Of a stretch of DNA of 12,306 nt, positions 1 through 12,306 are shown one piece after another; positions within the stretch are counted from its first letter, which is position 1; the number at the start of each line of letters is the position of its first letter. The notes under the pieces were generated by a model. That model saw only the letters and a program-made list of their open reading frames with translations, ran no database searches and was not told the origin of the DNA. The translations under genes were made by a program, and so were the position numbers. This DNA comes from Pseudomonadota bacterium (GTDB lineage: Bacteria > Pseudomonadota > Alphaproteobacteria > Acetobacterales > Acetobacteraceae), in the NCBI GenBank assembly GCA_021828605.1, contig JAJZEG010000053.1, forward strand, positions 1-12,306, given 5' to 3'.

Positions 1-553
1 GCGATGACGATGGCGGACATGAATGTATGAGCGCAGCGGTCGTAGCGCATGGCGATACGGCGCCAGTCCTTGATCCGACCGAACATGTTTTCGATTTTGT
101 GGCGCTGGCGGTAGAGCGTGGCATCGTAGGCGTGCTGGATTTTACGGTTCTTGCGTGGCGGGATGCATGGATTGATGCCTTTGTTGACCAGGGCGGCGCG
201 AAACTGGTCGCTGTCGTAGCCCCGGTCACCGAGCAATTCCTTGGCCGGTGGCAGGGCATCAAACATCAGTCTGGCAGCCTTGTGGTCGCTCATCTGCCCT
301 TCCGAGAGCAGCATGACGATCAGACGTCCTTTACCGTCACAAACCGCGTGCAATTTGGAGTTTAGACCCCCTTTGGTGCGCCCGATATGGCGGGGAACAC
401 CCTCCGCAGCCTTTCCATCAATGCCATGCATTGAACAAAGATGATCCCGCTGATTACCCGTCGATCATCAACCCGTGGAACTCCATGCGACAGCGGAAAA
501 TACGGCTCGATCCGCCGCACTTGGCTCGGCGTCAACCAAAACAAATCGCTCAT
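1..553 (-). pseudogene. IS5-family (DDE) transposase, internal deletion and frame break, 3' end outside window
   Basis: The - strand frame starting at 553 reads MSDLFWLTPSQVRRIEPYFP and later PRVDDRRVISGIIFV, the standard N-terminal domain of IS5-family transposases. A GGAGG ribosome site lies just upstream. Near 436-440 it jumps out of frame into the C-terminal part. In a single open frame from about 445 to the window edge this part reads IGRTKGGLNSKLHAV, LLGDRGYDSDQFR, IPPRKNRKIQ, YRQRHKIENMFGRIKDWRR and RYDRCAHTF. The second catalytic Asp (in GDRGYDSD) and the catalytic Glu (in KIENMF) are therefore present. The roughly 90 to 100 residues that should lie between the halves, including the first catalytic Asp (usually in an M-I-D-x-T-H motif), are missing. 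The upstream frame ends at a TAA at 362-364. The gene is a deletion derivative and cannot encode an active enzyme. Confidence 0.85.
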
Positions 554-620
554 GGCAGGCTCCTCCCGCCATCTCCAGAATCAGATCCAACCGCGTCGAT
601 GCAAGAATTTTAATGGGGCC
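1..620 (-). mobile_element. IS5-family insertion sequence relic, internally deleted, cut by the window edge
   Basis: This segment holds one end of an IS5-family element with the transposase reading leftwards. The left part leaves the window, so only one end is visible. The outer end is not fixed. It probably lies just before the CTAA around 620, because a GGCCCCATT-like stretch (read on the - strand) begins there, but no partner terminal repeat is available for comparison. The family call rests on the transposase; the boundary is a guess. Confidence 0.55.
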
Positions 621-626
621 TAACCG

Positions 627-680
627 TAGTGTCCTGCTTATCCCTGAAATTCATCCAATGAATTTCAGGGCAGGACACTA
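627..680. repeat. Near-perfect inverted repeat (MITE-like or fused IS ends)
   Basis: The left arm begins TAGTGTCCTG (627-636) and continues CCCTGAAATTCAT (642-654). The right arm (658-680) is the exact reverse complement of those two blocks joined. The arms pair over 23 bp, with a 5-nt bulge (CTTAT, 637-641) on the left and a 3-nt loop (CCA, 655-657). Both outer ends finish in TA, which would fit a TA target duplication of the IS630/Tc1 type. No poly-T follows, so it is not a standard terminator. It looks like a minimal non-autonomous element or two IS ends left abutting after an internal deletion. The family assignment is inference. Confidence 0.6.
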
Positions 681-865
681 GCTTCAAATGGAACTATAGC
701 GATTATGCGCGGAGGGTGCTTGATTCGATCATTGAATTTTATCCCGTTATTGTGGTCTGGTTGCTGCTTTCGACGTTTTTCGCTGATACATTGTTTCGAA
801 TGGTCCGGATCAGGCTGCGCAAGTCGGCAAATCAATGCAAGATCATAAAATCCTGGCCTTGCTGA
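662..865 (+). pseudogene. C-terminal fragment of a membrane protein truncated by the inverted-repeat element
   Basis: An open frame runs from inside the right arm of the inverted repeat to a TGA at 863-865. After the element sequence it reads WNYSDYARRVLDSIIEF, then a hydrophobic helix YPVIVVWLLLSTFFADTLF, then a basic tail RMVRIRLRKSANQ. The helix followed by Arg/Lys residues looks like genuine membrane-protein coding sequence. There is no well-spaced start: a GTG at 716 directly abuts GGAGG with no spacer. The simplest reading is a gene whose 5' part was lost when the element at 627-680 arrived. It overlaps the next frame (start 835) by 31 bp, so a frameshifted single gene is an alternative. 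Family unknown. Confidence 0.4.
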
Positions 866-1083
866 TTTCGATGGCGCTGTTCATCACCCCAGGCTTGGTA
901 TCGGTGCGGAATACCTGGCCGGGATCGCGCGCTTATGACGATGCAATCACGGTCCAATATGGCACCGATTTGTTTTTCGTTGCGGCCTTATTTTATTTTA
1001 TGTTCTTCGTTACTATCGTTACGATTAATGATGTGCGTCTTCAAGAAGATCGATCCAGCGCGGCGCGCGACGCAGGAGGGTGA
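835..1083 (+). CDS. Small two-helix membrane protein, function unknown
   Basis: This 82-residue frame has two convincing transmembrane segments, roughly residues 6-23 (ILALLISMALFITPGLV) and 45-65 (DLFFVAALFYFMFFVTIVT). A polar loop with RNTWPGSRAYDD lies between them, and a charged C-terminal tail follows. I do not recognise the family. No clear ribosome site precedes the ATG at 835; its translation could be coupled to the upstream fragment that overlaps it by 31 bp. Alternatively, the two are pieces of one gene split by a frameshift near 835-860, because hydrophobic and charged segments alternate naturally across the junction. Sequence composition is balanced for G and C, unlike the copper genes further right. 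Confidence 0.45.
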   Translation: MQDHKILALLISMALFITPGLVSVRNTWPGSRAYDDAITVQYGTDLFFVAALFYFMFFVTIVTINDVRLQEDRSSAARDAGG

Positions 1084-1245
1084 TCGCGGTGGGGCGGGTT
1101 GGGACGGATTGGCTCGTGGTCTGGACAGGCCGAAACCTGCATCGGGCCCGTGCTTGGCAGGATCACCCTGCAAGATTGCGCCAAAGACATCGAAGATGCC
1201 GCATAGGCAATCTGAACCTATCACGCTTTCAACGTGCTGGAGACA

Positions 1246-1704
1246 ATGAAGCCGATGAGCAATCATGATATTTTGCACGGTGGCTGCTTATGCGGTCAAA
1301 TCCGATACGCGATCTCACCCGGAAGCGTATTCGATGCTGGATGGTGCCATTGTCGGCAGTGCCGACAGATGACGGGGTCTGCCGCTCTTCCATTCTTCAA
1401 CGTCACGCGGGCAGAATTCAAGATTCTTCAAGGCAACCCCAGACATTATCGCTCCTCCGATCAGGGCTGGCGCGTCTTCTGCGGTGATTGCGGATCACCG
1501 GTCTGGTATCAGCCGACCGAACCGGGAGGTCATATCGCCGTCAATACCGGGACTCTCGATCATCCCAACGACGCCTCGGTCCGACCCAGGTTCCACATGT
1601 TCGACGTCGAACGGCTTGCCTGGTTTGACGCGAACCCGGCGCTGCCGCGATTTGCCGATAACCAGCTGACCCATCCCGATACCAGAGAGACCTATCATCC
1701 TTGA
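1246..1704 (+). CDS. GFA family (glutathione-dependent formaldehyde-activating / CENP-V fold) zinc protein
   Basis: The 152-residue product carries the full cysteine pattern of the GFA/CENP-V family. It has CxC in GGCLCGQIRY (Cys14, Cys16), CxCxxC in WCHCRQCRQMTG (Cys34, Cys36, Cys39) and CxxC in FCGDCGSPVWY (Cys79, Cys82). In this family these residues bind two zinc ions, one structural and one at the active site. The founding member was proposed to speed formaldehyde-glutathione adduct formation, but most members have no proven substrate, so only the fold and zinc binding are safe. GGAG at 1239-1242 lies just 5' of the ATG at 1246. The in-frame ATG at 1255 (MSNHDILHGG) is an equally good start and matches the usual family length. 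The gene stands alone, is complete, and has no obvious operon partner. Its composition differs from the copper genes that follow. Confidence 0.88.
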   Translation: MKPMSNHDILHGGCLCGQIRYAISPGSVFDAGWCHCRQCRQMTGSAALPFFNVTRAEFKILQGNPRHYRSSDQGWRVFCGDCGSPVWYQPTEPGGHIAVNTGTLDHPNDASVRPRFHMFDVERLAWFDANPALPRFADNQLTHPDTRETYHP

Positions 1705-2016
1705 TGTCGCGAATTTTGCGCCCGGCCCGGTAATGTCACGCGCCGATGGTTGGCCCGACTCTGCCGGCCCGGCAGCGCATGATCGCGCTTTGGCGGCGGC
1801 GTTTTCGGAAATTGGCTGCGCGGTAAGCTGATCAGTCTATTTTAGATGACGCCGCCGCCACGGCTCTCGGGTTTGGCGCTGATTGTCGATGAGTTGGCGT
1901 GGGCGCTTGAAGATTGGGGCGCTTGAAGATTGGGGTGTCGCGTTCCACCTGAACAAGGCTGGATTACGTTCGCTCGATAGTTTTGCAGCACGCGGTTGGA
2001 GCAAAAGGCGGTTGTC
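1705..2016. other. Intergenic region between the GFA gene and the multicopper oxidase
   Basis: This 312-bp stretch holds a short perfect inverted repeat at 1761-1775 (CTGCCGG, one base, CCGGCAG) with no T-run after it. It also holds the disrupted small frame and the tandem duplication listed separately. I see no convincing promoter or metal-responsive operator for the copper genes. Confidence 0.6.
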
Positions 2017-2020
2017 ATGA
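1846..2020 (+). pseudogene. Possible small leader gene broken by a 16-bp duplication
   Basis: An ATG at 1846 opens a frame (MTPPPRLSGLALIVDELAWA) that stops at a TGA at 1924-1926, inside the second copy of a 16-bp tandem repeat. If one repeat copy is removed, the frame continues for 52 codons to a TGA at 2018-2020. That stop forms a classic ATGA overlap with the ATG (2017) of the multicopper oxidase gene. A restored frame that meets the next start in this way suggests a former translationally coupled small protein. The family is unknown, codon evidence is thin over so short a span, and the match may be chance. Confidence 0.3.
1901..1935. repeat. 16-bp tandem duplication (2.2 copies)
   Basis: GGGCGCTTGAAGATTG occurs at 1901-1916 and again, identically, at 1917-1932, followed by a further GGG. 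The copies are exact, which suggests a recent slippage or duplication event. The 16-bp length shifts any reading frame crossing it. Confidence 0.9.
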
Positions 2021-3531
2021 AAAATTCTCTTTCTCGGCGGTCATTTGGGTTGTTGTCGGGCTCGGCTTTGGTGCTGCCGGGGGTTTTGACCTCGGAGGCG
2101 GCGGCGCAAGCGACAGCGGGGGGATCGAAGGCGGGGGCGCCGCTTGGGTTGGTGGCGGAGACCCGGACTTTGGAGGTTAATGGCAAAGCGGCGCGGGTGT
2201 TTGGGTTGCGCGGGCCTGATGGGCGGCATGGGTTGAGTTTGGCGCCGGGGGAGCGGTTTCGGGTCGCGCTGCATAATCAGACGGGGCATAACCAGGCGGG
2301 GGTGCGCACGATTATTCACTGGCATGGCCAGCCCGCACCTTGGCAGCAGGATGGGTTTCCCTGGCCGCAGACCCCTCCCCTCGCCGTGGGTGCGACCCGG
2401 CAATTTGATTTCGAGCCGATTGCCGGGACGTTTTGGATGCATTCGCATCAAGGGTTGCAGGAACAACAATTGATGGCGGCGCCGTTGATTATTCATAGTG
2501 CGGCGGAATTGCGCGAGGATCGGCAAGAGATTGTGCTGATGCTGCATGATTTCAGTTTCGAGTCACCCGATGCGCTGCTCGCCGGGCTGAACCATCAGCC
2601 GGTGGGGCAGATCCATGAGGCGATGCGCATGGCGGAGAATGCGCCGGTGCCCAAGCATGCGCCGAAATATGTCAAATTGAAGAAAAGCGGCAAAATTTCT
2701 ATGCCGCCGGAGCTTAATGACATTACCTATGATGCGTTTTTGGCGAATGATCGCACGCTTGATGATCCGGCGGTGGTGCGGGTTGATCAGCGCGGCAAAG
2801 TCAGGCTGCGGATTATTAATGGCTCGGCATCGAGCCAGTTTTGGATTGATTTGGGTCGGCTGCACGGGCGGGTGGTGGCGGTTGATGGACATGGGGTGCA
2901 TCCGGTGGCGGGGCGGATATTTCCGATTGCGATTGCGCAACGGTTGGATATTCTGGTTGATCTGCCTACCACTGCGGGGGCGTTTCCGATTATGGCGACG
3001 CTGGAGGGCACCACGCGGCGGACCGGGATTATTTTGGCGCAGCAAAACGCCGCGATTGGTCGGGTGAGTCCAACGGCTGCGCACCAAGCGCCGCCGGTGG
3101 ATAATTCGCTGGAAACCCGGCTGGTGGCGACAGCACCACTCAAACCGCGCCATGCGGATTTGGTGCATAAAATTGCGCTGGCGGGGTCGATGGCGCCGTT
3201 TCGATGGTCGTTGGATAAGCAATATTGGCCCTCGATTACGCCATTGATGCTGAAAAAAGGGCAGCGGGTGGAAATTGAGCTGATTAATCATTCGATGATG
3301 GCGCATCCGATGCATTTGCACGGGCATAGTTTTCAGGTGATTGAGGTTGACGGGCAGAAAATTAACGGGGCGATGCGTGACACGGTGTTAGTGCCGGGCA
3401 AAAAAGGCGCGCAAGTGCGGATTGCGTTTGATGCGGATAATCCGGGGCGATGGGCGTTTCACTGCCATAATTTATATCATATGGCGGCGGGGATGATGAC
3501 GGAATTTCGGTATCATGGGATTCCGGTTTGA
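2017..3531 (+). CDS. Tat-exported multicopper oxidase (CueO/CopA-like laccase family)
   Basis: The 504-residue protein starts with a twin-arginine signal (SRRSFGLL, residues 6-13) followed by a hydrophobic stretch and an Ala-rich cleavage region near residue 31. All four copper-ligand motifs are present: HWHG (His101, His103), HSH (His142, His144), HPMHLHGH (His430, His433, His435, plus His437) and HCHxxxHxxxxM (His482, Cys483, His484, His488, Met493). This gives a complete type 1 site with an axial Met and an intact trinuclear cluster. Such enzymes oxidise Cu(I) or phenolic substrates in the periplasm while reducing oxygen to water. The substrate here is inferred to be Cu(I), from the Tat signal and the DUF4396 partner; there is no long Met-rich insert as in E. 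coli CueO. I chose the ATG at 2017, with AAGG 8 bp upstream, because it places the signal peptide at the N-terminus. Codon third positions are rich in G and T. Confidence 0.93.
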   Translation: MKNSLSRRSFGLLSGSALVLPGVLTSEAAAQATAGGSKAGAPLGLVAETRTLEVNGKAARVFGLRGPDGRHGLSLAPGERFRVALHNQTGHNQAGVRTIIHWHGQPAPWQQDGFPWPQTPPLAVGATRQFDFEPIAGTFWMHSHQGLQEQQLMAAPLIIHSAAELREDRQEIVLMLHDFSFESPDALLAGLNHQPVGQIHEAMRMAENAPVPKHAPKYVKLKKSGKISMPPELNDITYDAFLANDRTLDDPAVVRVDQRGKVRLRIINGSASSQFWIDLGRLHGRVVAVDGHGVHPVAGRIFPIAIAQRLDILVDLPTTAGAFPIMATLEGTTRRTGIILAQQNAAIGRVSPTAAHQAPPVDNSLETRLVATAPLKPRHADLVHKIALAGSMAPFRWSLDKQYWPSITPLMLKKGQRVEIELINHSMMAHPMHLHGHSFQVIEVDGQKINGAMRDTVLVPGKKGAQVRIAFDADNPGRWAFHCHNLYHMAAGMMTEFRYHGIPV

Positions 3532-3538
3532 GGGTGGG

Positions 3539-4195
3539 ATGGTGCCGCGCTTGCTTTATGTGATTGCCATTGTCTCGTTAGTGGCGGCGCTGGTGAGTGC
3601 GCTGGTGATTGTGCTTGATTTGCGGCGGCATCCGCAAAAAATGGCGGTGATGAACGCGGTTTGGCCGGTGACGGCGCTGTATTTCGGGCCGCTGGCGGTT
3701 TGGGCCTATTGGGTGATGGGGCGACAGGTTGGGCAAGGTTCGCGCGAGAAGCCGTTTTGGATGAGTATTTTTGTTGGCGCGACCCATTGCGGCGCGGGCT
3801 GTACTTTGGGCGATATTATTGCCGAGTTCTTGATTTTTTTCACCGGTTTGGACATTGCGGGATCGCGGTTCGGGACCGAGTTGGTCGGTGATTATTGTTT
3901 GGCTTTCGCGCTTGGGATCGCGTTTCAGTATTTTGCGATTATGCCGATGCGCAAGATTAGTCCGGGTCAGGGGTTGATGGCCGCGTTGAAGGCGGATGCG
4001 GCGTCGCTGACGAGTTTCGAGATTGGGTTATTCGCCTGGATGGCGTTGATGCGGTTTGTGCTGTTTCATCCGGCGTTGCAGCCGAATGATCCGGTATTCT
4101 GGTTCATGATGCAAATTGGCATGATTGTTGGGTTTGCCACGACCTTGCCGGTGAATTGGTGGTTGGTGCGTGTGGGGATTAAGGAGGCGATGTGA
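3539..4195 (+). CDS. DUF4396 family integral membrane protein
   Basis: The 218-residue product has about six hydrophobic segments (roughly residues 4-26, 41-59, 75-101, 117-135, 160-178 and 187-209). The second half of segment three carries ATHCGAGCTLGD (His83, Cys84, Cys88, Asp92), the hallmark of DUF4396 proteins and a plausible intramembrane metal site. Function is not established; the family often occurs beside multicopper oxidases and other copper genes, and transport or metal sensing is possible. It starts 7 bp after the multicopper oxidase stop if the ATG at 3539 is used (GAGGG at 3530-3534). An upstream in-frame ATG at 3515 would overlap the oxidase gene by 17 bp and add eight polar residues. 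Either way the two genes must be co-transcribed. The third-position G/T bias matches the oxidase, so the pair has a common history. Confidence 0.85.
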   Translation: MVPRLLYVIAIVSLVAALVSALVIVLDLRRHPQKMAVMNAVWPVTALYFGPLAVWAYWVMGRQVGQGSREKPFWMSIFVGATHCGAGCTLGDIIAEFLIFFTGLDIAGSRFGTELVGDYCLAFALGIAFQYFAIMPMRKISPGQGLMAALKADAASLTSFEIGLFAWMALMRFVLFHPALQPNDPVFWFMMQIGMIVGFATTLPVNWWLVRVGIKEAM

Positions 4196-4225
4196 GGGGT
4201 TGGGTGTGTCTGAATTGAGATGTAG

Positions 4226-4281
4226 GGCGGCGGGGATGATGACCGCGTTTCGTTATCATGGGATTGCGGTTTGAGGGTGGG
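4226..4281 (+). pseudogene. Relic of the 3' end of a second multicopper oxidase gene
   Basis: This 56-bp stretch aligns without gaps to 3483-3538, the last codons of the multicopper oxidase plus its downstream GAGGGTGGG, with five mismatches. In frame it encodes AAGMMTAFRYHGIAV and a stop; the intact gene ends AAGMMTEFRYHGIPV and a stop. The changes keep the frame and the stop, so this looks like the tail of a diverged paralogue rather than a fresh duplication. Nothing upstream of 4226 resembles the rest of an oxidase gene: DUF4396 ends at 4195. Confidence 0.8.
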
Positions 4282-4312
4282 TTGCGCGAGCAAGGGCCTG
4301 AGGGGCGCGTAA

Positions 4313-4627
4313 TTAGGTATGGGTTGCTGGGGCGGTGGCGTGATGGGGGCCGTTATGGGGCATTACCAGAGTGGGATCGAGCCGGTGCAGCACCAGCAAG
4401 ACCAGCAGCAGAATGATGAGGGCAGCGAAAATGCCGCCGAACAAGCGGATCGCCAGAACGATGAGGGCAATGGCAATCACCACGAGAAGAACCGTCTGGA
4501 TCGGTTCGGGGATGTGCGCCAGGACCATCGCGCGGACGAGAGCTTGGTCGATAAAGGCGATTAACTGCATCACCAACCCGGCCAATTCGTAGATGATTGA
4601 GAGGATGACGTTGATCGCGTGTTTCAT
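4313..4627 (-). CDS. Small hydrophobic membrane protein with His-rich tail, function unknown
   Basis: The 104-residue product has three hydrophobic segments: about residues 5-27, 43-60 (TVLLVVIAIALIVLAI) and 63-80 (FGGIFAALIILLLVLLVL). It ends in a short polar tail with five His in the last 24 residues (HRLDPTLVMPHNGPHHATAP region). The ATG at 4627 has AGGAA about 9 bp upstream, and the frame ends in TAA at 4313. The unbroken alternation of helices with charged turns argues for a real gene. It converges with the DUF4396 gene and the oxidase relic, so it is a separate transcription unit. I do not recognise the family. The His-rich end next to copper genes hints at metal contact, but that is speculation. 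Confidence 0.65.
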   Translation of the reverse strand: MKHAINVILSIIYELAGLVMQLIAFIDQALVRAMVLAHIPEPIQTVLLVVIAIALIVLAIRLFGGIFAALIILLLVLLVLHRLDPTLVMPHNGPHHATAPATHT

Positions 4628-4964
4628 GGCTTGATTCCTATTCCGTTACGAGCCGTATAGACACTTTACGAGGCAACTGATCATTGCTGGCAGCTAAACT
4701 TATGGCCAGAAAACCAGGGTGCCGGAGATTACGAGGGAATGAGAGGTGGTAATCCCCCCTGAGATTAAGGGACTTGATAAGTAGAATTTTCTCGGAACAT
4801 TGTCTGAGGCGATTGGCATGAAAACATTGAGATAGAGCGAGCCCCAGATCCTTGCGATTGTGCGCCAAGCCGGGGGAGCGTTCCGTCACGCAGCTATGTC
4901 GAAAATAGCGCATGAACAACGCGACAGGGGCGCTACCCGACGGCAACTCCTTGTTGGCCGATCT
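4628..4964. other. Gene-poor spacer holding IS3 debris
   Basis: From 4628 to about 4746 I see no gene, only the upstream region of the small membrane protein. From about 4747 to 4926 lies the IS3-family relic described separately. From 4927 to 4964 there is unassigned sequence between that relic and the stop of the nuclease-like gene. A 102-codon frame on the - strand (4638-4946) runs antisense through the relic and is not believed. Confidence 0.6.
4747..4926 (+). mobile_element. IS3-family element relic: left end plus decayed orfA start
   Basis: From the ATG at 4818 the + strand reads MKTLR, a stop at 4833-4835, then SEPQILAIVRQA (4836-4871). After a small frame slip it continues TQLCRK, a stop, and RMNNAT (4888-4926). 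Intact IS3-family OrfA proteins begin MKTSRFSEPQILAI(V/L)RQAEGGVPV and continue with ELCRxHGMSNATFYKW, so the order and spacing match across two stops and a frame shift. GAGG lies upstream of the ATG, and the preceding TGGTAATCCCCCCTGAG at 4747 looks like the element's left terminal repeat. The sequence ends abruptly after the NAT codons, so the rest of orfA and all of orfB are gone. The family call is firm from the peptide pattern; the left boundary is approximate. Confidence 0.75.
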
Positions 4965-6482
4965 TCACGCGGCCTTTGAAGCCGATGGCTTATTGTCACG
5001 GCGAGCATCAATCAACACCACATCCTTATTCCCTTCCAAACCTAACTCTTTAAGGATGCCTTTCACCCGCGCGAGTTCGGACGCGGTAAAGTAGATAATC
5101 GCCTTAATAGCGTTCTTCGCATCACTGGCCGCTTGATAAATCTCTACTTGCTTGGCAAGGTTTTTCTTGAGTTTTGTATTTTTGGCAAGCTTCATTTCCA
5201 CTAACGTTTTATCTTGGCCTCTGCTGATCTTGAAATCAACAGGTCCCCGGCCATCGTTGGCCTCGGCGCTAGCGTCTGATGGTGTACCGAACCACACCAG
5301 GCGAAAAAGGACATGAAGATCTTGCTCACGCTCGATTTGCCTGCCGTTTTTGTCGTAGAAAAACCGGTGGCCACCCTTGTTCTCAATTACATCCTTGAGG
5401 TACGCGAGACGAGCGTGAGCTTCTTCGTAGGTTGTCTTGCCGACCTTATAGAATTTTGTGTTCGCCAGCAGAGCGGATTGGAGCTCTCCCAACTGCTCGA
5501 TGAACAAATACTCGGTCGCAAGCACTCGCTCCTGGCTCATATCCTTCGCTTGGTCGCCCCACATCTCTTTTAATTTGATATAATAATCAACGATCTGCGG
5601 AAATTTTTGCATTGTTACGATAACAGCCGCCGAGCGTTCTTTCTTTGTGGGTTCCCTCTCTCTGGTATGCGTCCGTCGGACTTTAAGATCAGGAGTGTCC
5701 ACTTTTGTCCGGCGACGTAGCTCTAATTCGAAATAATCGAAAACTGCCGTTCTGAGTTGGACATCAGGTATGGCTTCGGGGATATCTTCGAACCCGAAGA
5801 TTAAATCGTTACGATTAATCCAGTTCTCGTCACGAGTCAGCATGTCTTTTGGGGTGAGAATTACATAGTCGCCATTGACCCATGGCAACTTGTAGCGCTC
5901 ACGAGACCAACACTGCGTATGGTAATTAAATTTGGCGCGGTTTATCGATACTTCCCGCACCGCATGCGTTGGCAAATATTTTGCAGCAAACTCTTCAGTA
6001 TAGATGCACAAAAAGTCTTGGATCAAATTCGTGGTGAAGTCGCTGATGTTATCACGGCCCACCCCGTCCGACACCAAGCAAACTTTCTCAAGGTGGCTGC
6101 TCTCGGTGATTTTTTCTACGCCGAAATCAGAAAAGATGACGTGCAGATTGGCGTGCAAATTTCTGGCGAAATCGATACCGAGACCTGCTCCGCCATTGCC
6201 TCTTTCCGAAAATCCCAGCCAATTCTGTTTTACCTCGGGAAAGCAGTACCAGTTTCGTAATTGACCCTCACTCACATGTCCGTTGGCGGCACGGTCACGC
6301 AAAAAAACCAAATATTTAATAATCTGCTCATGTAGGGCCATGTACTCTGCCTTTTCGCTGTGGAAAAGCAGGAACGGGTCGATAAACAAGGGCAAGTCGT
6401 TGACTACGGATATGTTCACCGCGCCGTAGCTTTCGAATGCCGCCGTATCTATGCCTAAGTAATCATTGAGAAATGTCGCCAT
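4965..6482 (-). CDS. Uncharacterised 505-residue protein with C-terminal PD-(D/E)XK nuclease-like domain
   Basis: I cannot assign a named family. The N-terminal half (residues 1 to about 260) has conserved-looking stretches LPLFIDPFLLFHSEKAEY (about 30-47), WYCFPEVKQNWLGFSERG and GAGLGIDFARNLHANLH. A basic, helix-rich linker follows (about 265-380). The C-terminal part resembles a PD-(D/E)XK fold: Asp416 in GPVDFKI, Glu429-x-Lys431 in LVEMKLAK, and Gln445-xxx-Tyr449 in KQVEIYQ. These are the D, ExK and QxxxY motifs known from RecB-like and restriction-type nucleases, which cut DNA with a metal ion. The ATG at 6482 has AAGGG 4 to 5 bp upstream and follows an AT-rich leader. Codon use and lower GC differ from neighbours (25 G+C in 5581-5640). 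It is a single-gene unit between an IS3 relic and a gene-poor spacer, which suggests horizontal transfer. An anti-phage or plasmid-defence nuclease is the leading guess, unproven. Confidence 0.8.
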   Translation of the reverse strand: MATFLNDYLGIDTAAFESYGAVNISVVNDLPLFIDPFLLFHSEKAEYMALHEQIIKYLVFLRDRAANGHVSEGQLRNWYCFPEVKQNWLGFSERGNGGAGLGIDFARNLHANLHVIFSDFGVEKITESSHLEKVCLVSDGVGRDNISDFTTNLIQDFLCIYTEEFAAKYLPTHAVREVSINRAKFNYHTQCWSRERYKLPWVNGDYVILTPKDMLTRDENWINRNDLIFGFEDIPEAIPDVQLRTAVFDYFELELRRRTKVDTPDLKVRRTHTREREPTKKERSAAVIVTMQKFPQIVDYYIKLKEMWGDQAKDMSQERVLATEYLFIEQLGELQSALLANTKFYKVGKTTYEEAHARLAYLKDVIENKGGHRFFYDKNGRQIEREQDLHVLFRLVWFGTPSDASAEANDGRGPVDFKISRGQDKTLVEMKLAKNTKLKKNLAKQVEIYQAASDAKNAIKAIIYFTASELARVKGILKELGLEGNKDVVLIDARRDNKPSASKAA

Positions 6483-6540
6483 GTTACCCTTGTAAAATAT
6501 AATTTATAATAAGTTAACGATATCAAAATAATTTGGTATT
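6483..6540 (-). promoter_or_regulatory. AT-rich putative promoter region of the nuclease-like gene
   Basis: The 60 bases 6481-6540 contain only 11 G+C, far below the rest of the window. On the - strand they include TTGATA as a possible -35, with TATAAA and TATATT as possible -10 boxes, but the spacings (about 13 and 20) are not ideal. The ribosome site AAGGG follows directly before the ATG. The region is very likely to carry the promoter; the exact boxes are uncertain. Confidence 0.4.
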
Positions 6541-6889
6541 GCCTAGATCTGGCCAAAAAAATGTTTGGTGATGATCAATCCTCGAATAACTCCATCCGAT
6601 GTTGGTATTAGGGGGGCTAGGTGTCCGCACGGACAAATGACCGCCATGAGCGCGAATTTTCCCGCTGAGGCCGTGTGCAAACGTGCGCTTGGCCCGATGC
6701 TCCAACCCTGTCCGTGATCGCGGTTCCTGCCGTTCCAAGATCATGGAGAGAGAGGCTGCTGCCGCCGGGGTTGGGAGGCGAAAATATCGTTACGGCTCTG
6801 GTTGGGCTTGTTGATAGATTGCATCGTTATGCTGATGGCATTAACATAACTGCTCGTTATAACGATTTAAAACAGGCGGGAGGTTTATT
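6541..6889. other. Gene-poor spacer between the nuclease-like gene and aqpZ
   Basis: No credible gene is visible. The stretch contains a small inverted repeat TGTCCG-CA-CGGACA (6622-6635), three copies of TCGTTA (6787, 6824, 6854) leading into the aqpZ palindrome, and a ribosome site for aqpZ. A - strand frame at 6523-6744 has no recognisable domain, and it runs into the AT-rich leader of the nuclease gene. This may be the right flank of the acquired segment. Confidence 0.5.
6854..6865. promoter_or_regulatory. Perfect 12-bp palindrome upstream of aqpZ, possible operator
   Basis: TCGTTATAACGA is a perfect palindrome 24 bp before the aqpZ start. The half-site TCGTTA recurs at 6824-6829 and 6787-6792. 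The centre TTATAA could also serve as part of a -10 element, so a repressor binding here would block transcription. Operator function is inferred from symmetry and position only. Confidence 0.35.
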
Positions 6890-7618
6890 GTGGTTCGTCG
6901 ACTTGGCGCGGAGTTTCTTGGCACTTTTTGGTTGGTGTTTGGCGGTTGCGGCAGTGCGGTTCTGGCGGCGGCTTTTCCGCATCTTGGGATTGGTTTTGCC
7001 GGGGTTTCGCTGGCATTTGGCCTGACCGTGGTCACCGGGATTTATGCCGTTGGTTATATTTCGGGGGGTCATTTCAACCCCGCCGTCACGATTGGGTTGT
7101 GGGCCGGTGGGCGGTTCGCTGCGAAGGATATTCCGGCTTATGTGGTCACTCAGGTGATTGCGGCGATTGTTGCGGCGATGGTTTTGTATTTGATCGCGAG
7201 TGGCAAGCCGGGTTTTGTCGCGGGCGGGTTTGCATCGAACGGCTATGGGGCGCTCAGCCCGGATCATTTTTCGCTGGTTTCGTGCCTTGTCGGTGAAGTT
7301 GTTTGCACGTTCTTTTTTGTCACGGTGATTTTGGGTGCGACATCGGCGCGGGCGCCGGTCGGATTTGCCGGGCTTGCCATCGGCTTGACCCTGACATTGA
7401 TCCATCTGGTGATGATCCCGGTTGATAATACCTCGGTTAATCCCGCGCGCAGCACCGGGCCCGCTTTGATTGCCGGTACGGCACAAATTGATCAGCTCTG
7501 GGTGTTCTGGGTGGCACCGATTGCCGGGGCATTGATTGCCGGGCTGGTCTATCGGTGGCTGAGCCGCGACGCAGCGGTGCCCGCCGCGATGGCGACGGCG
7601 GAGTTGGTGGCCGGTTAG
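6890..7618 (+). CDS. aqpZ: Aquaporin Z, water channel
   Basis: The 242-residue product is a six-helix major intrinsic protein. It has both NPA boxes (Asn63-Pro64-Ala65 in GGHFNPAV and Asn184-Pro185-Ala186-Arg187 in TSVNPARS). The selectivity-filter residues match E. coli AqpZ with a two-residue offset: Phe43, His172, Thr181 and Arg187. This is the water-specific set; glycerol facilitators lack the His. It should carry water across the inner membrane during osmotic change. I chose the GTG at 6890, which has GGCGGGAGG ending 6 bp upstream and gives the conserved N-terminus [12 protein letters not shown]; no ATG is available. It is a single-gene unit, with a perfect palindrome upstream and a strong terminator downstream. 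The length is typical for the family. Confidence 0.95.
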
Positions 7619-7660
7619 TTTTCGCTCACTTTTTAGTGCGAGGCTGAGCAACGCCTGTTA

Positions 7661-7681
7661 TTGCCGCGCATTGCGCGGCAA
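7661..7681. other. Perfect GC-rich hairpin downstream of aqpZ
   Basis: TTGCCGCGC pairs with GCGCGGCAA across a three-base ATT loop, a 9-bp perfect stem. No T-run follows, so on its own it is not a standard terminator. It could stabilise the 3' end of the aqpZ transcript upstream of the true terminator. Confidence 0.5.
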
Positions 7682-7707
7682 TTCCAAACGATGAGCCTCT
7701 GGTCGAT

Positions 7708-7749
7708 AAAGATCCACAGGGTTTGCGTTGCTCTGTGGATCTTTTTTTT
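7708..7749 (+). terminator. Rho-independent terminator of aqpZ
   Basis: AAAGATCCACAG (7708-7719) pairs perfectly with CTGTGGATCTTT (7733-7744) across a 13-nt loop, and the stem runs into eight T residues (7742-7749). It lies about 90 bp after the aqpZ stop. On the opposite strand only three T's follow the stem, so it would stop cysQ transcription poorly. Confidence 0.9.
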
Positions 7750-7831
7750 GTGATAGCGACGATGCTGGGAGAACCAGGATTGGAAGGTCGTCGCGACCAT
7801 CATTTCGAGCGGCGAGACATCGCGCGTTTGC

Positions 7832-8605
7832 TCAATCGAGGCCGGTGCAGAAAAAATGAGGGTTTTCGTAGTTGGGTTTGCCGTAGAGGAGGGGTGCGGA
7901 ATCGGCGGTGCGGACATGGCCGCCGGCGGCTTCGAGCAGGGCTTGGGGGGCGGCGGTGTCCCACTCCATGGTGCGGCCTAGGCGCGGGTAGAAATCGGCT
8001 TCGCCTTCGGCGATGCGGCAGAATTTGAGGGCCGAGCCGATATTGGTGAGATGGGCGACTTTGTAGCGAGCGAGGCAGGCTTCGAGCGCGGGGTCGCCCG
8101 CGTAGTGGCGCGAGGCGAAGACGGTCATGCCTGCTGCGGGGGTTTTGCGGGCTTGGATTGGGGTGCGGGTGGTGCCCTGTTGGCGAAAGGCGCCTTGGCC
8201 GACAATGCCGCCATAGATAACGCCTTGCGCTGGAGCGCCGACGGCGCCGAGGATGGCGCGCTGGTCGATGATCAGGCCGATATTGACCACGAACTCATCG
8301 CGCCCGGCGGCGAATTCGCGGGTGCCGTCCAGCGGGTCGACTAGCCAGAAGCAGCGACCGGGTTCGGTTTGGCGTCCGGCGGCGACTTCTTCCTCGGCGA
8401 TGACGGGAATATCGGGGGTGAGAGCGCGCAAGCCCGCAGCGATGATGCGCTCGGCGCGCATGTCGGCGATGGTCACGGGAGATTGATCGGATTTATGGTC
8501 GACCGCGAAGCCTTGGGCGCGCACGGCGAGAATTTCCTCGGCGGCGGCTGCAACCAAGCGAACGGCATGGTCAAGAAGATGCGGTAGATCAGGGGTATGG
8601 TGCAT
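7832..8605 (-). CDS. cysQ: 3'(2'),5'-bisphosphate nucleotidase CysQ
   Basis: This 257-residue protein belongs to the inositol-monophosphatase superfamily. Metal-binding motifs are intact: EEE at 71-73 (PVIAEEEV), DPLDGT at 90-95 (LVDPLDGTREF) and WDTAA at 215-219 (MEWDTAAPQALLEAAGG). PVTIADMRAE (43-52) corresponds to the usual VTxAD segment. CysQ removes the 3' phosphate from 3'-phosphoadenosine 5'-phosphate, which is left over from sulfate assimilation, using Mg2+ in the cytoplasm. An inositol monophosphatase is the alternative, but the length, the DGTREF form and the C-terminal pattern favour CysQ. The ATG at 8605 has no strong ribosome site. The gene diverges from pepA across 138 bp. The + strand stays G-rich here (26 G against 13 C in 8041-8100), so the coding strand is C-rich. 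Confidence 0.92.
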   Translation of the reverse strand: MHHTPDLPHLLDHAVRLVAAAAEEILAVRAQGFAVDHKSDQSPVTIADMRAERIIAAGLRALTPDIPVIAEEEVAAGRQTEPGRCFWLVDPLDGTREFAAGRDEFVVNIGLIIDQRAILGAVGAPAQGVIYGGIVGQGAFRQQGTTRTPIQARKTPAAGMTVFASRHYAGDPALEACLARYKVAHLTNIGSALKFCRIAEGEADFYPRLGRTMEWDTAAPQALLEAAGGHVRTADSAPLLYGKPNYENPHFFCTGLD

Positions 8606-8743
8606 TGCGGGGTAATACAGGCTGGTGGGGTAAAGGCCAAGCCGGGGCTCGCTGCGGTGGGATTTATGGTGCGGTGCAGTATTTTACAGCGGCGCAAAAA
8701 GCGGGATAGGAGTGGGTGAGAACAATGATCGGGGACATGTTTC

Positions 8744-10267
8744 ATGATTGATATCGCCTTTGCCAAACCGAGCCTCCCGCAATCGGGCGCGGTGGCGCTG
8801 TTGTTGGCGTCTGACCAAAAATTGAGCGGTTTGGCGGAGACGCTGGATCAGGCGCTGGGGGGCGGGTTGAGCCGGGCGCTGGCGGTTGCTGAATTTACCG
8901 GCAAGTTTGAGCAGACGGCGGTGCTGTTGGCACCGGGCGCGGGGCTGGATCGGGTGGTGGTGGTGGGGCTTGGCGAGCCGGATAAGCTGACTTTGCATCG
9001 CGCAGAGCGCGCGGGTGCTGTCGCGGCGGCGGCGCTGGCGCGTGATGAGCAGGCCACCGTGATTGCCGAGACGTTAGGGGCGGCGCAGTTGGCGCATGTC
9101 GGGCTGGGCGCGCGGCTGCGCAGCTATCGGTTTGAGCAGTATCATACAAGCAAAAAGCCGGACCAAAAGTTGAAATTGCGGCAGGTGACTTTGTTGACGG
9201 CGGATTTGGCGCGGGCACGCTCGGCTTTTGCGCCGCTGGCGGCGATTGCGGCGGGGGTGGAGCGGACTCGCGATTTGGTGAGTGAGCCTGCGAATATTTT
9301 GACGCCGGTGGAATTTGCCGATCGGGCGGAGACGCTGGAGGCGTTGGGCGTGAAGATTGAGATTTTTGATCGTCACGACATGGAAAAACTGGGTTTCGGG
9401 GCTTTGCTGGGTGTGGCGCAAGGTAGCGCCAATGAGCCGCGCATGGTGGTGATGCAGTGGCTGGGTGCGTCGCGCAACGAGGGGCCGAGCAAGGGCAAGA
9501 AGGCGAGTAAGGTCAAGGCGCATGATCCGCTGGTATTTATTGGCAAGGGGGTCACGTTTGATACGGGCGGGATTTCGATTAAGCCCGCTGGCGGCATGGA
9601 AGATATGAAATGGGACATGGCCGGGGCGGGTACGGTTGTCGGGTTGATGGCGGCGCTTGCCGGGCGGCAGGCGCGGGTTGATGCGGTGGGGTTGATCGGG
9701 CTGGTGGAGAATATGCCGTCGGGCACAGCGCAGCGGCCTGGCGATGTGGTGACCTCCTATTCGGGGCAGACGATTGAGGTGTTGAACACCGATGCCGAGG
9801 GGCGGTTGGTGCTGGCGGATGTGCTGGCTTATGCGCAAAAGCGGTTTGCTCCGCGCTTGATGGTTGATTTGGCGACACTGACCGGGGCGATTGTGATTGC
9901 GCTGGGTCACGAAAATGCGGGCTTGTTCTGCAATGATGATGAGCTGGCCGAGCAGTTGGTGTCGGCGGGTGGGGCGACCGGCGAGGAGGTTTGGCCGATG
10001 CCGCTCAGTGCGGCTTATGACAAGCTGCTGGAGAGCGACATTGCCGATATGAAAAATATCAGCGGGGCGCGGGGGGCCGGTGCGGTGACCGCGGCGCAGT
10101 TTTTGCAGCGGTTTGTTGATACGAAATCGGGGCCGATGCCGTGGGCGCATTTGGATATTGCCGGGATGGCCTGGGCGGGTAAGGCGAGCGGGGTTACCCC
10201 AAAAGGGGCGACGGCGTTCGGGGTGCGGCTGTTGGATCGGCTGGTGTCGGACCATTACGAGCACTGA
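8744..10267 (+). CDS. pepA: Leucyl aminopeptidase (M17 family)
   Basis: The 507-residue product has the two-domain M17 layout: a variable N-terminal domain (to about residue 170) and the catalytic domain. All key residues are visible. KGVTFDTGGISIKP gives Lys268, Asp273 and Lys280, MKWDMAGAG gives Asp291, and NTDAEGRLVL (348-357) gives Asp350, Glu352 and the catalytic Arg354. It removes N-terminal residues from peptides in the cytoplasm using two metal ions; in some bacteria PepA also binds DNA at recombination or control sites. A Lys-rich insert at about 248-257 (SKGKKASKVK) before the first catalytic motif is unusual. The ATG at 8744 has GGGGA 8 bp upstream. The gene is intact and of typical length. 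Confidence 0.95.
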   Translation: MIDIAFAKPSLPQSGAVALLLASDQKLSGLAETLDQALGGGLSRALAVAEFTGKFEQTAVLLAPGAGLDRVVVVGLGEPDKLTLHRAERAGAVAAAALARDEQATVIAETLGAAQLAHVGLGARLRSYRFEQYHTSKKPDQKLKLRQVTLLTADLARARSAFAPLAAIAAGVERTRDLVSEPANILTPVEFADRAETLEALGVKIEIFDRHDMEKLGFGALLGVAQGSANEPRMVVMQWLGASRNEGPSKGKKASKVKAHDPLVFIGKGVTFDTGGISIKPAGGMEDMKWDMAGAGTVVGLMAALAGRQARVDAVGLIGLVENMPSGTAQRPGDVVTSYSGQTIEVLNTDAEGRLVLADVLAYAQKRFAPRLMVDLATLTGAIVIALGHENAGLFCNDDELAEQLVSAGGATGEEVWPMPLSAAYDKLLESDIADMKNISGARGAGAVTAAQFLQRFVDTKSGPMPWAHLDIAGMAWAGKASGVTPKGATAFGVRLLDRLVSDHYEH

Positions 10268-10269
10268 CC

Positions 10270-11409
10270 TTGGTTGAGGTGTCGGTGCCCCCGCTTAGCG
10301 TTCCAACGCGAGCGGTGCCGGATTACGCGGGCTGGGTTGCGGTGGGGCGGGGCTATACCCGGCGGCTACGGGTCGCAGGGGTGGCGGTGGCGACCCCTGC
10401 CCCGCCGCTGGCGGTTGCTGATCCGGCGTTGGTCGGGCGGTCCTTGGTGGAATTGCATTGCGGCGCGCTTGATCAGCCCGGTTTTGATCTGGCGATCACC
10501 GGGCCGCTTGCGGTGACGCTGAGCCGGTTCGGGATGGTTTGGCAGGAGGGGCATCTGCTGACCAGCGCAGAAATTTTGCCCGATTATGTGATGCCGCAAC
10601 TGCACGCCGCACCGGCGCATTTTTTCACCGGGCCGCGCGCGCTGCCCTGCCGCGCGGAGCATCGGCCTGGCTTCGTGTTCAGCGGCTGGGGGATGCATGT
10701 TTTCGGGCATTTTTTGATCGAGACCTTGCCGCGCCTGCTGCTCGCGCGCGCTTTGCCGCACTGGTTAGACGGGGCGTTGCCGGTGTTGGATCGGGCGATG
10801 CCGGATTGGTTGCAGGTGATTTTGCGCGAGCAGTTTGGGATTGGCGAGAGCAATGCGATCTGGTTCGATTCCAGGATCGAGCAGCTTGATCTGGCGCGCG
10901 CCTGGTTGATCCCTAATTTGCTGCGTCCAGGCGGGTTTCATCCGCTGGCGGCGGGATTGTTAGAGGCGTTTGGGCAAGGATTGGCGGGGCCTGCGCAGCA
11001 AGGCGGGGCGCGGTTGTTCATTGCGCGCGGCGATTATCACAACCCGCATTCGGCGCAGCGTTGTCTGGAGAACGAGGCGGCGCTGGCGGCGATGGCTGAG
11101 GCTGAGTTTGGTTGCACCGTGGTTTATCCACAGGATTTGTCGTTTACTGAGCAGGTCGCGTGTTTTAGCCGGGCCGAATTGGTGTTGGGGCAAGCGGGGT
11201 CGGCGCCGCATTTGGCGCTGTTTGCGCCGAAGGGAGCGCGGGTTGGGGTGTTGCGGTTCATGGCGCCGGATCAGTCATTTATTGCGGCGTTGCGCGGGCA
11301 GAAAATCGGCTATTTGACCGAAGGGATCAGTGAGACGGCGCCGGGGCAGTTTCGGATTGATCCTGAAAAATTCAGGATGTTTGGCGCGGCGATGCTGGCG
11401 ATCGATTAA
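10270..11409 (+). CDS. Glycosyltransferase family 61 (DUF563) protein
   Basis: The 379-residue protein shows the GT61 pattern. GWGMHVFGHFLIETLPRLL (139-157) carries the His-x3-His-x3-Glu arrangement, and a middle block reads FIARGDYHNPHSAQRCLEN. Near the C-terminus LVLGQAGSAPHLALFAPKGA (about 305-324) is the typical loop that contacts the nucleotide sugar. GT61 enzymes transfer sugars such as xylose or N-acetylglucosamine; bacterial members usually sit in capsule or exopolysaccharide loci, but no such genes are visible here and the substrate is unknown. The reading frame begins at TTG 10270, only 2 bp after the pepA stop, with no clear ribosome site, so translation probably depends on ribosomes finishing pepA. 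A GTG at 10279 or 10285 is an alternative start. The stop at 11407-11409 overlaps the stop of crtC on the other strand. Confidence 0.85.
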   Translation: MVEVSVPPLSVPTRAVPDYAGWVAVGRGYTRRLRVAGVAVATPAPPLAVADPALVGRSLVELHCGALDQPGFDLAITGPLAVTLSRFGMVWQEGHLLTSAEILPDYVMPQLHAAPAHFFTGPRALPCRAEHRPGFVFSGWGMHVFGHFLIETLPRLLLARALPHWLDGALPVLDRAMPDWLQVILREQFGIGESNAIWFDSRIEQLDLARAWLIPNLLRPGGFHPLAAGLLEAFGQGLAGPAQQGGARLFIARGDYHNPHSAQRCLENEAALAAMAEAEFGCTVVYPQDLSFTEQVACFSRAELVLGQAGSAPHLALFAPKGARVGVLRFMAPDQSFIAALRGQKIGYLTEGISETAPGQFRIDPEKFRMFGAAMLAID

Positions 11410-12306
11410 CCGAAACGTGGCATGCGGAAGGGCAGCATGGCGCGGATGATCGGCTGGCGCAGGCGATCGAGATCGAGGGTTTCGTGGATACAGGGGCCCG
11501 ATTGGCCATCGAGGCGGTTTTGGATCATCGCGCGGGCGTAAAAGGGGGCGTCTTCGAGGCGTTGGCGCTCGGTGGGGTGGCTGCCGGGATCGGCGCGGAT
11601 TTGGCGGGGTAGGCGCCAGACGGTGCGTTCAAGCGGTGCGAGCGGCGGCGGTGCAAAATGGGTGACGCCGCCGGTATTGGCGAAGCGGAGCGCGAGCGCG
11701 TGGCTGCTGGCGTCGCGGCGATTGGCATCGTAGCAAATTATCGCGCCGGTTGGGGTGGTCATGCGCGACCAGTGCCAGGTGCGAAAGGCGCTGGCGATGG
11801 GTTCGGCGCCGTGATTATGGTCGAGATAGGCAGGACCGGACCAGCGCAGAGCCGGGTGCTCGAAGGCGATCTCGATGCGCGCGCAGGGGGCGATGGGCGA
11901 CCAGATATGACGGCCTTCGGCGTCGAGCGGGTACGATTGGGTCTCAAGGGATGAGGGTGTTAGGCGGAGCGTGCCGCGCAGGCGGTGCGGGATCGGGGCG
12001 GTGACCTCGTTGATCGAGGCGTCGAGGGCCGAGCCGGTCCAATGCAGGGAACTGGGGCCGATTTGCAGGTGGGTGGCACAGCGGGTGACGCGGCGGCGTT
12101 CGGTCATCGCCCAGCGACTGGCGCGCGGGCGGTAGAGTGCGAGGTTGATGGCGCAGAATTGCTCGGCGATGCCGCGATTGCGGGTGATGGCGCGGTGATA
12201 ATAGGGCGAGAAGACCGAGCCGATGAAGGCGATCAACGTGAGGGCCTGGCTGCCATCATCGCTGATCGCGTCGAGATACCACCAGGCATAGCCGCCATCG
12301 GGGACG
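11406..12306 (-). CDS. crtC: Carotenoid 1,2-hydratase (hydroxyneurosporene synthase), 5' end outside window
   Basis: The frame is open to the right edge of the window (in-window N-terminus PDGGYAWWYLDAISDDG) and continues FIGSVFSPYYHRA, RWAMTERRR, YLDHNHGAEPI, WHWSR, LEDAPFYARAM and AMLPFRMPRFG. These are the conserved blocks of CrtC in order. About 300 codons are visible, so only a few N-terminal residues are missing. CrtC adds water to the end double bond of neurosporene or lycopene, an early step towards spheroidene or spirilloxanthin in purple bacteria and aerobic phototrophs. Such genes usually lie in a photosynthesis cluster with crtD and crtF, which would be expected beyond the right edge. 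The TAA at 11406-11408 shares bases with the TAA of the GT61 gene. The TTG at 12236 is not the start: homology continues upstream. Confidence 0.92.
   Translation of the reverse strand, partial: VPDGGYAWWYLDAISDDGSQALTLIAFIGSVFSPYYHRAITRNRGIAEQFCAINLALYRPRASRWAMTERRRVTRCATHLQIGPSSLHWTGSALDASINEVTAPIPHRLRGTLRLTPSSLETQSYPLDAEGRHIWSPIAPCARIEIAFEHPALRWSGPAYLDHNHGAEPIASAFRTWHWSRMTTPTGAIICYDANRRDASSHALALRFANTGGVTHFAPPPLAPLERTVWRLPRQIRADPGSHPTERQRLEDAPFYARAMIQNRLDGQSGPCIHETLDLDRLRQPIIRAMLPFRMPRFG

Follow-up and report, generated by a model that had tools for sequence, protein, structure and literature searches.

The stretch of DNA analyzed here, referred to as the window, comprises 12,306 nucleotides from a member of the Acetobacteraceae (assembly GCA_021828605.1, contig JAJZEG010000053.1, positions 1 to 12,306). 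The gene under study is a solitary reading frame on its reverse strand, encoding a predicted three-part protein in which a conserved N-terminal domain (N-domain) is joined by a linker to a C-terminal PD-(D/E)XK nuclease domain (Table 1). A first-pass annotation, made from the sequence alone, had proposed this gene as a candidate single-gene defense system.

Table 1. Coordinates of the nuclease gene, its domains and motifs, and adjoining features of the window.
Feature	Position	Strand	Basis
Solitary 505-residue protein: N-domain, helical linker and C-terminal PD-(D/E)XK nuclease	4965..6482	-	Open reading frame with ATG start; predicted structure
N-domain, residues 1-262, related to PADLOC PDC-M36A; taken as Pfam PF28123	5697..6482	-	PADLOC match, P0217, alignment
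N-domain motif D29-...-D35-P36 (DLPLFIDP)	6375..6398	-	D29, D35 and P36 identical in 10/10 superfamily members aligned
N-domain motif D144-x-I146-S147-D148 (DNISD)	6039..6053	-	D144, I146, S147 and D148 identical in 10/10 superfamily members aligned
Mostly helical linker, residues 263-379, least conserved part	5346..5696	-	Predicted structure, alignment
PD-(D/E)XK nuclease domain, residues 380-505, taken as PF28130	4968..5345	-	Model, structural neighbors, alignment
D416, metal-binding Asp by motif	5235..5237	-	104/107 homologues
E429-x-K431, catalytic pair by motif	5190..5198	-	107/107 homologues
Q445-xxx-Y449	5136..5150	-	104/107 homologues each
Shine-Dalgarno-like AAGGG, 4 bases 5' of the ATG	6487..6491	-	Sequence
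Sigma-70-like promoter match (9/12) in AT-rich leader; possibly chance	6499..6526	-	
IS3-family transposase relic, 3' side of the nuclease gene	4748..4924	.	Plasmid-collection matches

The nuclease assignment of the C-terminal domain is supported by both alignment and structural modeling. The residues D416, E429, K431, Q445 and Y449, which the first-pass annotation had read as the motif set of RecB-like nucleases, lie where it placed them and are retained in 104 to 107 of the 107 aligned sequences (the window protein, 33 selected database entries and sequences from 73 of 82 usable loci), and 103 of these carry the complete E386/E407/D416/E429/K431/Q445/Y449 set. Loci L037, L057 and L067, which contain an X or a stop, were left out of the alignments and the tree, and L092, which contains stops, out of the alignments. 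The predicted structure runs from a helix (residues 386 to 395) through strands at 403 to 406, 417 to 421 and 424 to 432 to a second helix (438 to 453) and a last strand (457 to 464), reproducing the expected alpha-beta-beta-beta-alpha-beta core. Its structural neighbors are mainly nucleases (BamHI, OkrAI, McrC, EndoMS, Can2/Card1/Cdn1), aligned mostly over residues ∼346 to 497. By sequence and model, the protein thus appears to combine the D...(D/E)-x-K active site with the core topology of the PD-(D/E)XK superfamily. Pfam gives a sub-threshold DpnII-MboI match (residues 415 to 465, E = 0.018), and a viral fold library returns one unnamed match at E ≤ 0.001, with named PD-(D/E)XK and RecB-type nucleases among its lower rows. 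An oligopeptidase identity, raised by two weak PDB profile matches (E = 0.18 and 0.65, profile positions 213 to 359), was rejected as chance. In a Janthinobacterium clade (P0121, P0125, P0126; L003:7983-9425), D416, Q445 and Y449 are lost while E429/K431 and the N-domain are kept; the plasmid copy has neighbors read divergently, an AAA ATPase gene and one for a protein that is HNH-like by eye.

The N-terminal region, which the earlier annotation had found impossible to place, does have named relatives. The PADLOC model PDC-M36A matches residues 5 to 227 at E = 4e-20 (profile positions 8 to 221 of 457), and Pfam entries for the family exist: in precomputed assignments, PF28130 and PF28123 occur on 120 of 120 homologues in one listing and 115 of 120 in another, while a direct Pfam scan of the window protein returned neither. 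Because the homologue P0217, which consists of the N-domain only, carries PF28123 alone, we assign this entry to the N-domain, which leaves PF28130 for the C-terminal part. One E. coli copy bears the name DUF8370; these three names gave no indication of function. Sequence searches of Pfam, NCBIfam and the PDB gave no family filing for the window protein, and the two PHROG families that match it (30194 and 27295) have no assigned function. The first-pass annotation had also offered a clear match to a known non-defense family as grounds for dropping its proposal, and the Pfam, PADLOC, NCBIfam and PHROG scans yielded none. A literature search confined to main text found no assay of the nuclease family and no paper naming PDC-M36, PDC-M36A, DUF8370, PF28123, PF28130 or two E. 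coli accessions.

Ten aligned superfamily members, including true PDC-M36A, are identical at D29, D35-P36, E83, G90, G98, D144-x-I146-S147-D148, P211 and R244. Modeled alone, the N-domain has no fold match in the PDB. It occurs in three arrangements: fused to a nuclease of the window type; in PDC-M36, with a different C-terminus that by eye also holds an E-x-K and with two B proteins; and, on one Acinetobacter plasmid, in a 304-residue protein without the nuclease part. In the Acinetobacter locus (L112:5992-7760), the N-domain protein is followed by an 82-residue open reading frame (ORF) and a 172-residue protein that is hydrophobic by eye, and the locus adjoins ImmA/IrrE and MazF-type genes. 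The PDC-M36 loci of Methylobacterium (L111:5995-8125) and Leptolyngbya (L113:5980-8170) hold two B paralogues each and come after umuC-type genes, on two unrelated plasmids. It is possible, as a tentative proposal, that the N-domain is a new and very widespread infection-sensing or ligand-handling module whose effectors can be exchanged (two or more types of C-terminal nuclease and, on one plasmid, possibly a separate membrane protein). It would then define a superfamily of defense systems that hosts, plasmids, satellites and even a myovirus turn against each other.

The window protein resembles PDC-M36 in its homologous N-domain and in the nuclease-like E-x-K segment with which PDC-M36A, by eye, likewise ends. 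It differs in that the A model covers residues 5 to 227 of 505 only, leaving the C-terminal half uncovered, and in that both of the PDC-M36 loci read have two small B proteins behind PDC-M36A. A B protein was detected neither next to the window gene, where the only small neighbor scanned (4313-4627) has no PADLOC match, nor in eight E. coli regions described below. In its likely mode of working, the protein is closest to Shedu (SduA). However, its N-domain is different, the Pfam scan gave no DUF4263 at E ≤ 1, the PADLOC scan gave no Shedu model, and the structural Z score is too low for a claim of kinship. As judged from these sequence comparisons, the window protein is distinct from Shedu (no DUF4263) and from PDC-M36 (no B genes, partial A match).

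The family is large and its members mostly stand alone: of the search results, 6472 of 8000 candidates scored are homologous at E ≤ 1e-3, so the observation exceeds chance. The best support for defense comes from the setting of the relatives, above all from the int-psu locus of P4-type satellites in E. coli. Among 5426 E. coli genomes, 17 carry a copy, all at least 99% identical to the query copy; the one compared with the window protein is 49% identical over nearly the whole length. A tRNA-Leu gene, a P4-type integrase gene (int) and the nuclease gene are continuous in all 17, and the block is unbroken through psu in 16. In each of the eight regions read, the nuclease gene (1.46 kb) is the sole gene between int and psu, and five other listed strains have GmrSD-type restriction proteins (four) or an ATP-binding protein (one) at the same place. 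In the available text of a survey of this site (PMC9122126, Rousset et al. 2022), 5,251 P4 loci show more than 300 gene arrangements at int-psu, and of the canonical P4 genes and 18 systems that were cloned, seven sets gave resistance. The E. coli relative occupies this cargo site and stands alone in a defense-type locus, a setting observed for this relative rather than for the window copy.

Relatives are also carried by six IMG/VR loci. A further P4-type satellite, L089, was recognized by its integrase (E = 4.8e-58) and Psu (E = 3.4e-89) matches; it is 90.5% identical to the E. coli satellite in the nuclease gene, 92% in the integrase and 67% in psu. The prophage-like contigs L087 and L088 have terminase genes, and L088 additionally an integrase; L090 was left unassigned. 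In a myovirus (L091:6663-8144), an intact copy lies antisense between the tail sheath and tail tube genes. This position is the best support for a homing-type or exclusion nuclease, which would cut competing elements lacking the gene so that the gene spreads, with defense as a by-product. A related 608-kb myovirus contig (L128, sheath 61% identical) fits the same idea with an antisense NUMOD3 GIY-YIG gene in that interval, a gene type known from homing endonucleases. However, in L127 the interval holds other ORFs without a Pfam match, the relatives in satellites, plasmids and chromosomes have differing flanks with no single target gene seen, and known homing domains do not include the conserved N-domain; we regard this explanation as very unlikely. 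The sheath-tube interval of this myovirus group takes varied cargo, with the nuclease in L091 and the NUMOD3 GIY-YIG gene plus an uncharacterized 290-residue protein in L128. Decay of the phage copy in L092 was considered and set aside, as L092/L124 are ∼99.5% identical to L091/L126 and the interruption may be an assembly error.

Among 84,980 species genomes, 319 of 375 stretches encode a relative; 80 of these loci were kept, and 77 of them, many from metagenome bins, are labeled to 16 phyla. In the Bradyrhizobium family, 6 of 149 genomes have any match and three a full-length one, one of these being the chosen center. Fifteen plasmid records match as well, 10 covering at least 80% of the query, and 9 of the 15 are conjugative. 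The distribution is patchy and mobile. On a tree of 77 genome loci and the window, phylum labels require 20 changes, against a minimum of 15 and a mean of 30.6 after shuffling; branches with good support require no fewer than four changes for Pseudomonadota and two each for Thermodesulfobacteriota and Nitrospirota, and Bacillota form one clade. It is highly improbable that the protein is a nuclease for DNA repair or replication quality with which mobile elements maintain themselves: the umuC link belongs to the PDC-M36 branch only, presence is patchy, and the E. coli copy sits in a cargo site whose genes get swapped.

Genomic neighborhood analysis places type I restriction genes within 5 kb of the gene in 8 of the 80 loci (L021, L033, L043, L044, L053, L063, L079, L085), a count taken without a random-region control and with 5 kb on both sides in only 49 loci. 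Seven were recognized by blastp clusters and L085 by Pfam, with Pfam names available for single members from L063, L079 and L085 only; all hsdM-cluster members contain NPP[FYW], and all hsdR-cluster members a P-loop and DExH. Directly upstream of the gene lie hsdM-hsdS (L063), hsdR-hsdM-hsdS (L079) or hsdR (L033, L085). In PADLOC scans, adjacent ORFs no more than 1 kb from the gene (134 proteins from 79 loci) matched 295 models, with type I specificity in 4 of 134, against 68 models, each with at most one protein, for a sample of ORFs more than 6.5 kb away (148 of 291), a weak comparison in that models rather than proteins are counted, the ORFs come from a simple script, and far ORFs may share the island. 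Pfam assignments in the near set include HEPN AbiV, resolvase and integrase (2/134 each, among the top 25 of 91 families), and one distant relative lies near SIR2, DUF3427 and GIY-YIG genes.

In 8 of the 80 genome loci, a methyltransferase-type gene is found within 5 kb, and such a gene also occurs in a Paenarthrobacter operon. This would suit an orphan or accessory restriction enzyme whose N-domain reads a DNA sequence or modified base, while a methyltransferase, or the lack of that modification, protects the host. However, no methyltransferase was found between int and psu in the eight E. coli regions or among the seven window proteins scanned, so it is not an obligatory partner; moreover, in the Acinetobacter relative the N-domain occurs with no nuclease part. 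We consider a restriction enzyme unlikely. In the Paenarthrobacter plasmid (L002:1197-8572), overlapping ORFs encode a DNA methyltransferase, a DEAD/DEAH helicase, a GIY-YIG protein and, last, the nuclease, possibly a multi-gene form. Relatives of this methyltransferase lie 76 bp (L061) and 3.0 kb (L076) from the nuclease gene.

Taken together, we consider the gene to be probably a horizontally mobile single-gene system against phages or other mobile elements. A solitary nuclease that its host tolerates must be specific, or silent until triggered. The nuclease would stay inactive in the uninfected cell until the conserved N-domain recognizes something made or exposed upon infection; the helical linker would then relay the signal, perhaps via oligomerization, to the PD-(D/E)XK domain, which would cut either the invader's DNA or that of its own cell (abortive infection). 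Sensor and effector are probably one protein, because the nuclease gene has no companion from int to psu in the E. coli regions that were read; the N-domain is the simplest sensor candidate, because it is common to relatives with different C-termini. We infer DNA cleavage, the defense role, sensing by the N-domain and the need for a trigger alike.

Several observations weigh against a mobile anti-phage system. Conservation of the N-domain is high (mean 70% over residues 1 to 150), which is unlike a fast-evolving sensor, and the domain could be an enzyme. The phylum labels cluster on the tree, which indicates mostly within-phylum descent plus some transfer, and bins may hold foreign contigs. 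The 17 E. coli copies are near-identical and so reflect few acquisition events. An intact copy in a myovirus implies that the protein is not hostile to every phage, and two queries of INPHARED matched none of 50,697 records. The PD-(D/E)XK domain by itself is a weak sign of defense: in the part of the DefensePredictor study available (PMC13092281), 24 low-scoring cassettes had remote homology to defense proteins, six of them PD-(D/E)XK, and one of the 24 gave protection. Among the validated E. coli systems of the same source, 13 carry a PD-(D/E)XK domain in a new architecture, and neither DUF8370 nor P4-like occurs in its main text as available. The available text of PMC9122126 names all seven active P4 sets, and the nuclease family is not among them; the E. 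coli protein may be either untried or one of the sets without effect. The window copy sits amid metabolic-type genes, as do copies in many genome loci (carboxyl transferase, citrate synthase, SelB). The defense role that had been read from context gains from relatives in mobile elements, the P4 hotspot and the type I restriction genes, and loses from the many loci with ordinary neighbors; it is put forward here as presumptive.

The local signs of mobility noted in the first-pass annotation are present in the window. The nuclease gene has the lowest guanine-cytosine (GC) content (47.9%) and GC at third codon positions (GC3, 55.7%) of the eight genes measured, the other seven having 55 to 67% and 64 to 80%, respectively. 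GC skew is slightly negative across the gene, positive from 1751 to 4750 and from ∼6500 onward, and mixed before 1751. The IS3 relic is genuine but small (∼180 bases): six of 10 listed plasmid matches (41 records) are annotated as IS3-family transposase, at 70.7 to 72.8% identity. The 5' spacer (6483-6889, 407 bases) has no match in the plasmid collection; sigma-70-like matches number five in the leader region versus 2.7 expected. Scans of the window found neither a tRNA nor any Rfam family at gathering score. By Pfam, the neighbors include a multicopper oxidase, a DUF4396 protein, an aquaporin, an inositol-phosphatase family protein and a leucyl aminopeptidase (PepA), whose top identity listed among 385 alphaproteobacterial genomes is 63%. 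Two overlapping ORFs at 3-553 on the reverse strand look, by eye, like an IS5-type transposase truncated at the window edge, and an ORF at 11406-12236, also reverse, resembles by eye a carotenoid hydratase of the CrtC type, a hint that the host may be phototroph-related.

If the favored explanation is true, P4 satellites of E. coli, conjugative plasmids and contigs labeled to 16 bacterial phyla share one gene for an uncharacterized anti-phage nuclease. The idea lends itself to direct testing, since the E. coli version is a short, lone gene in a standard host; mutants at conserved N-domain positions would be clean tools for asking what the protein senses.
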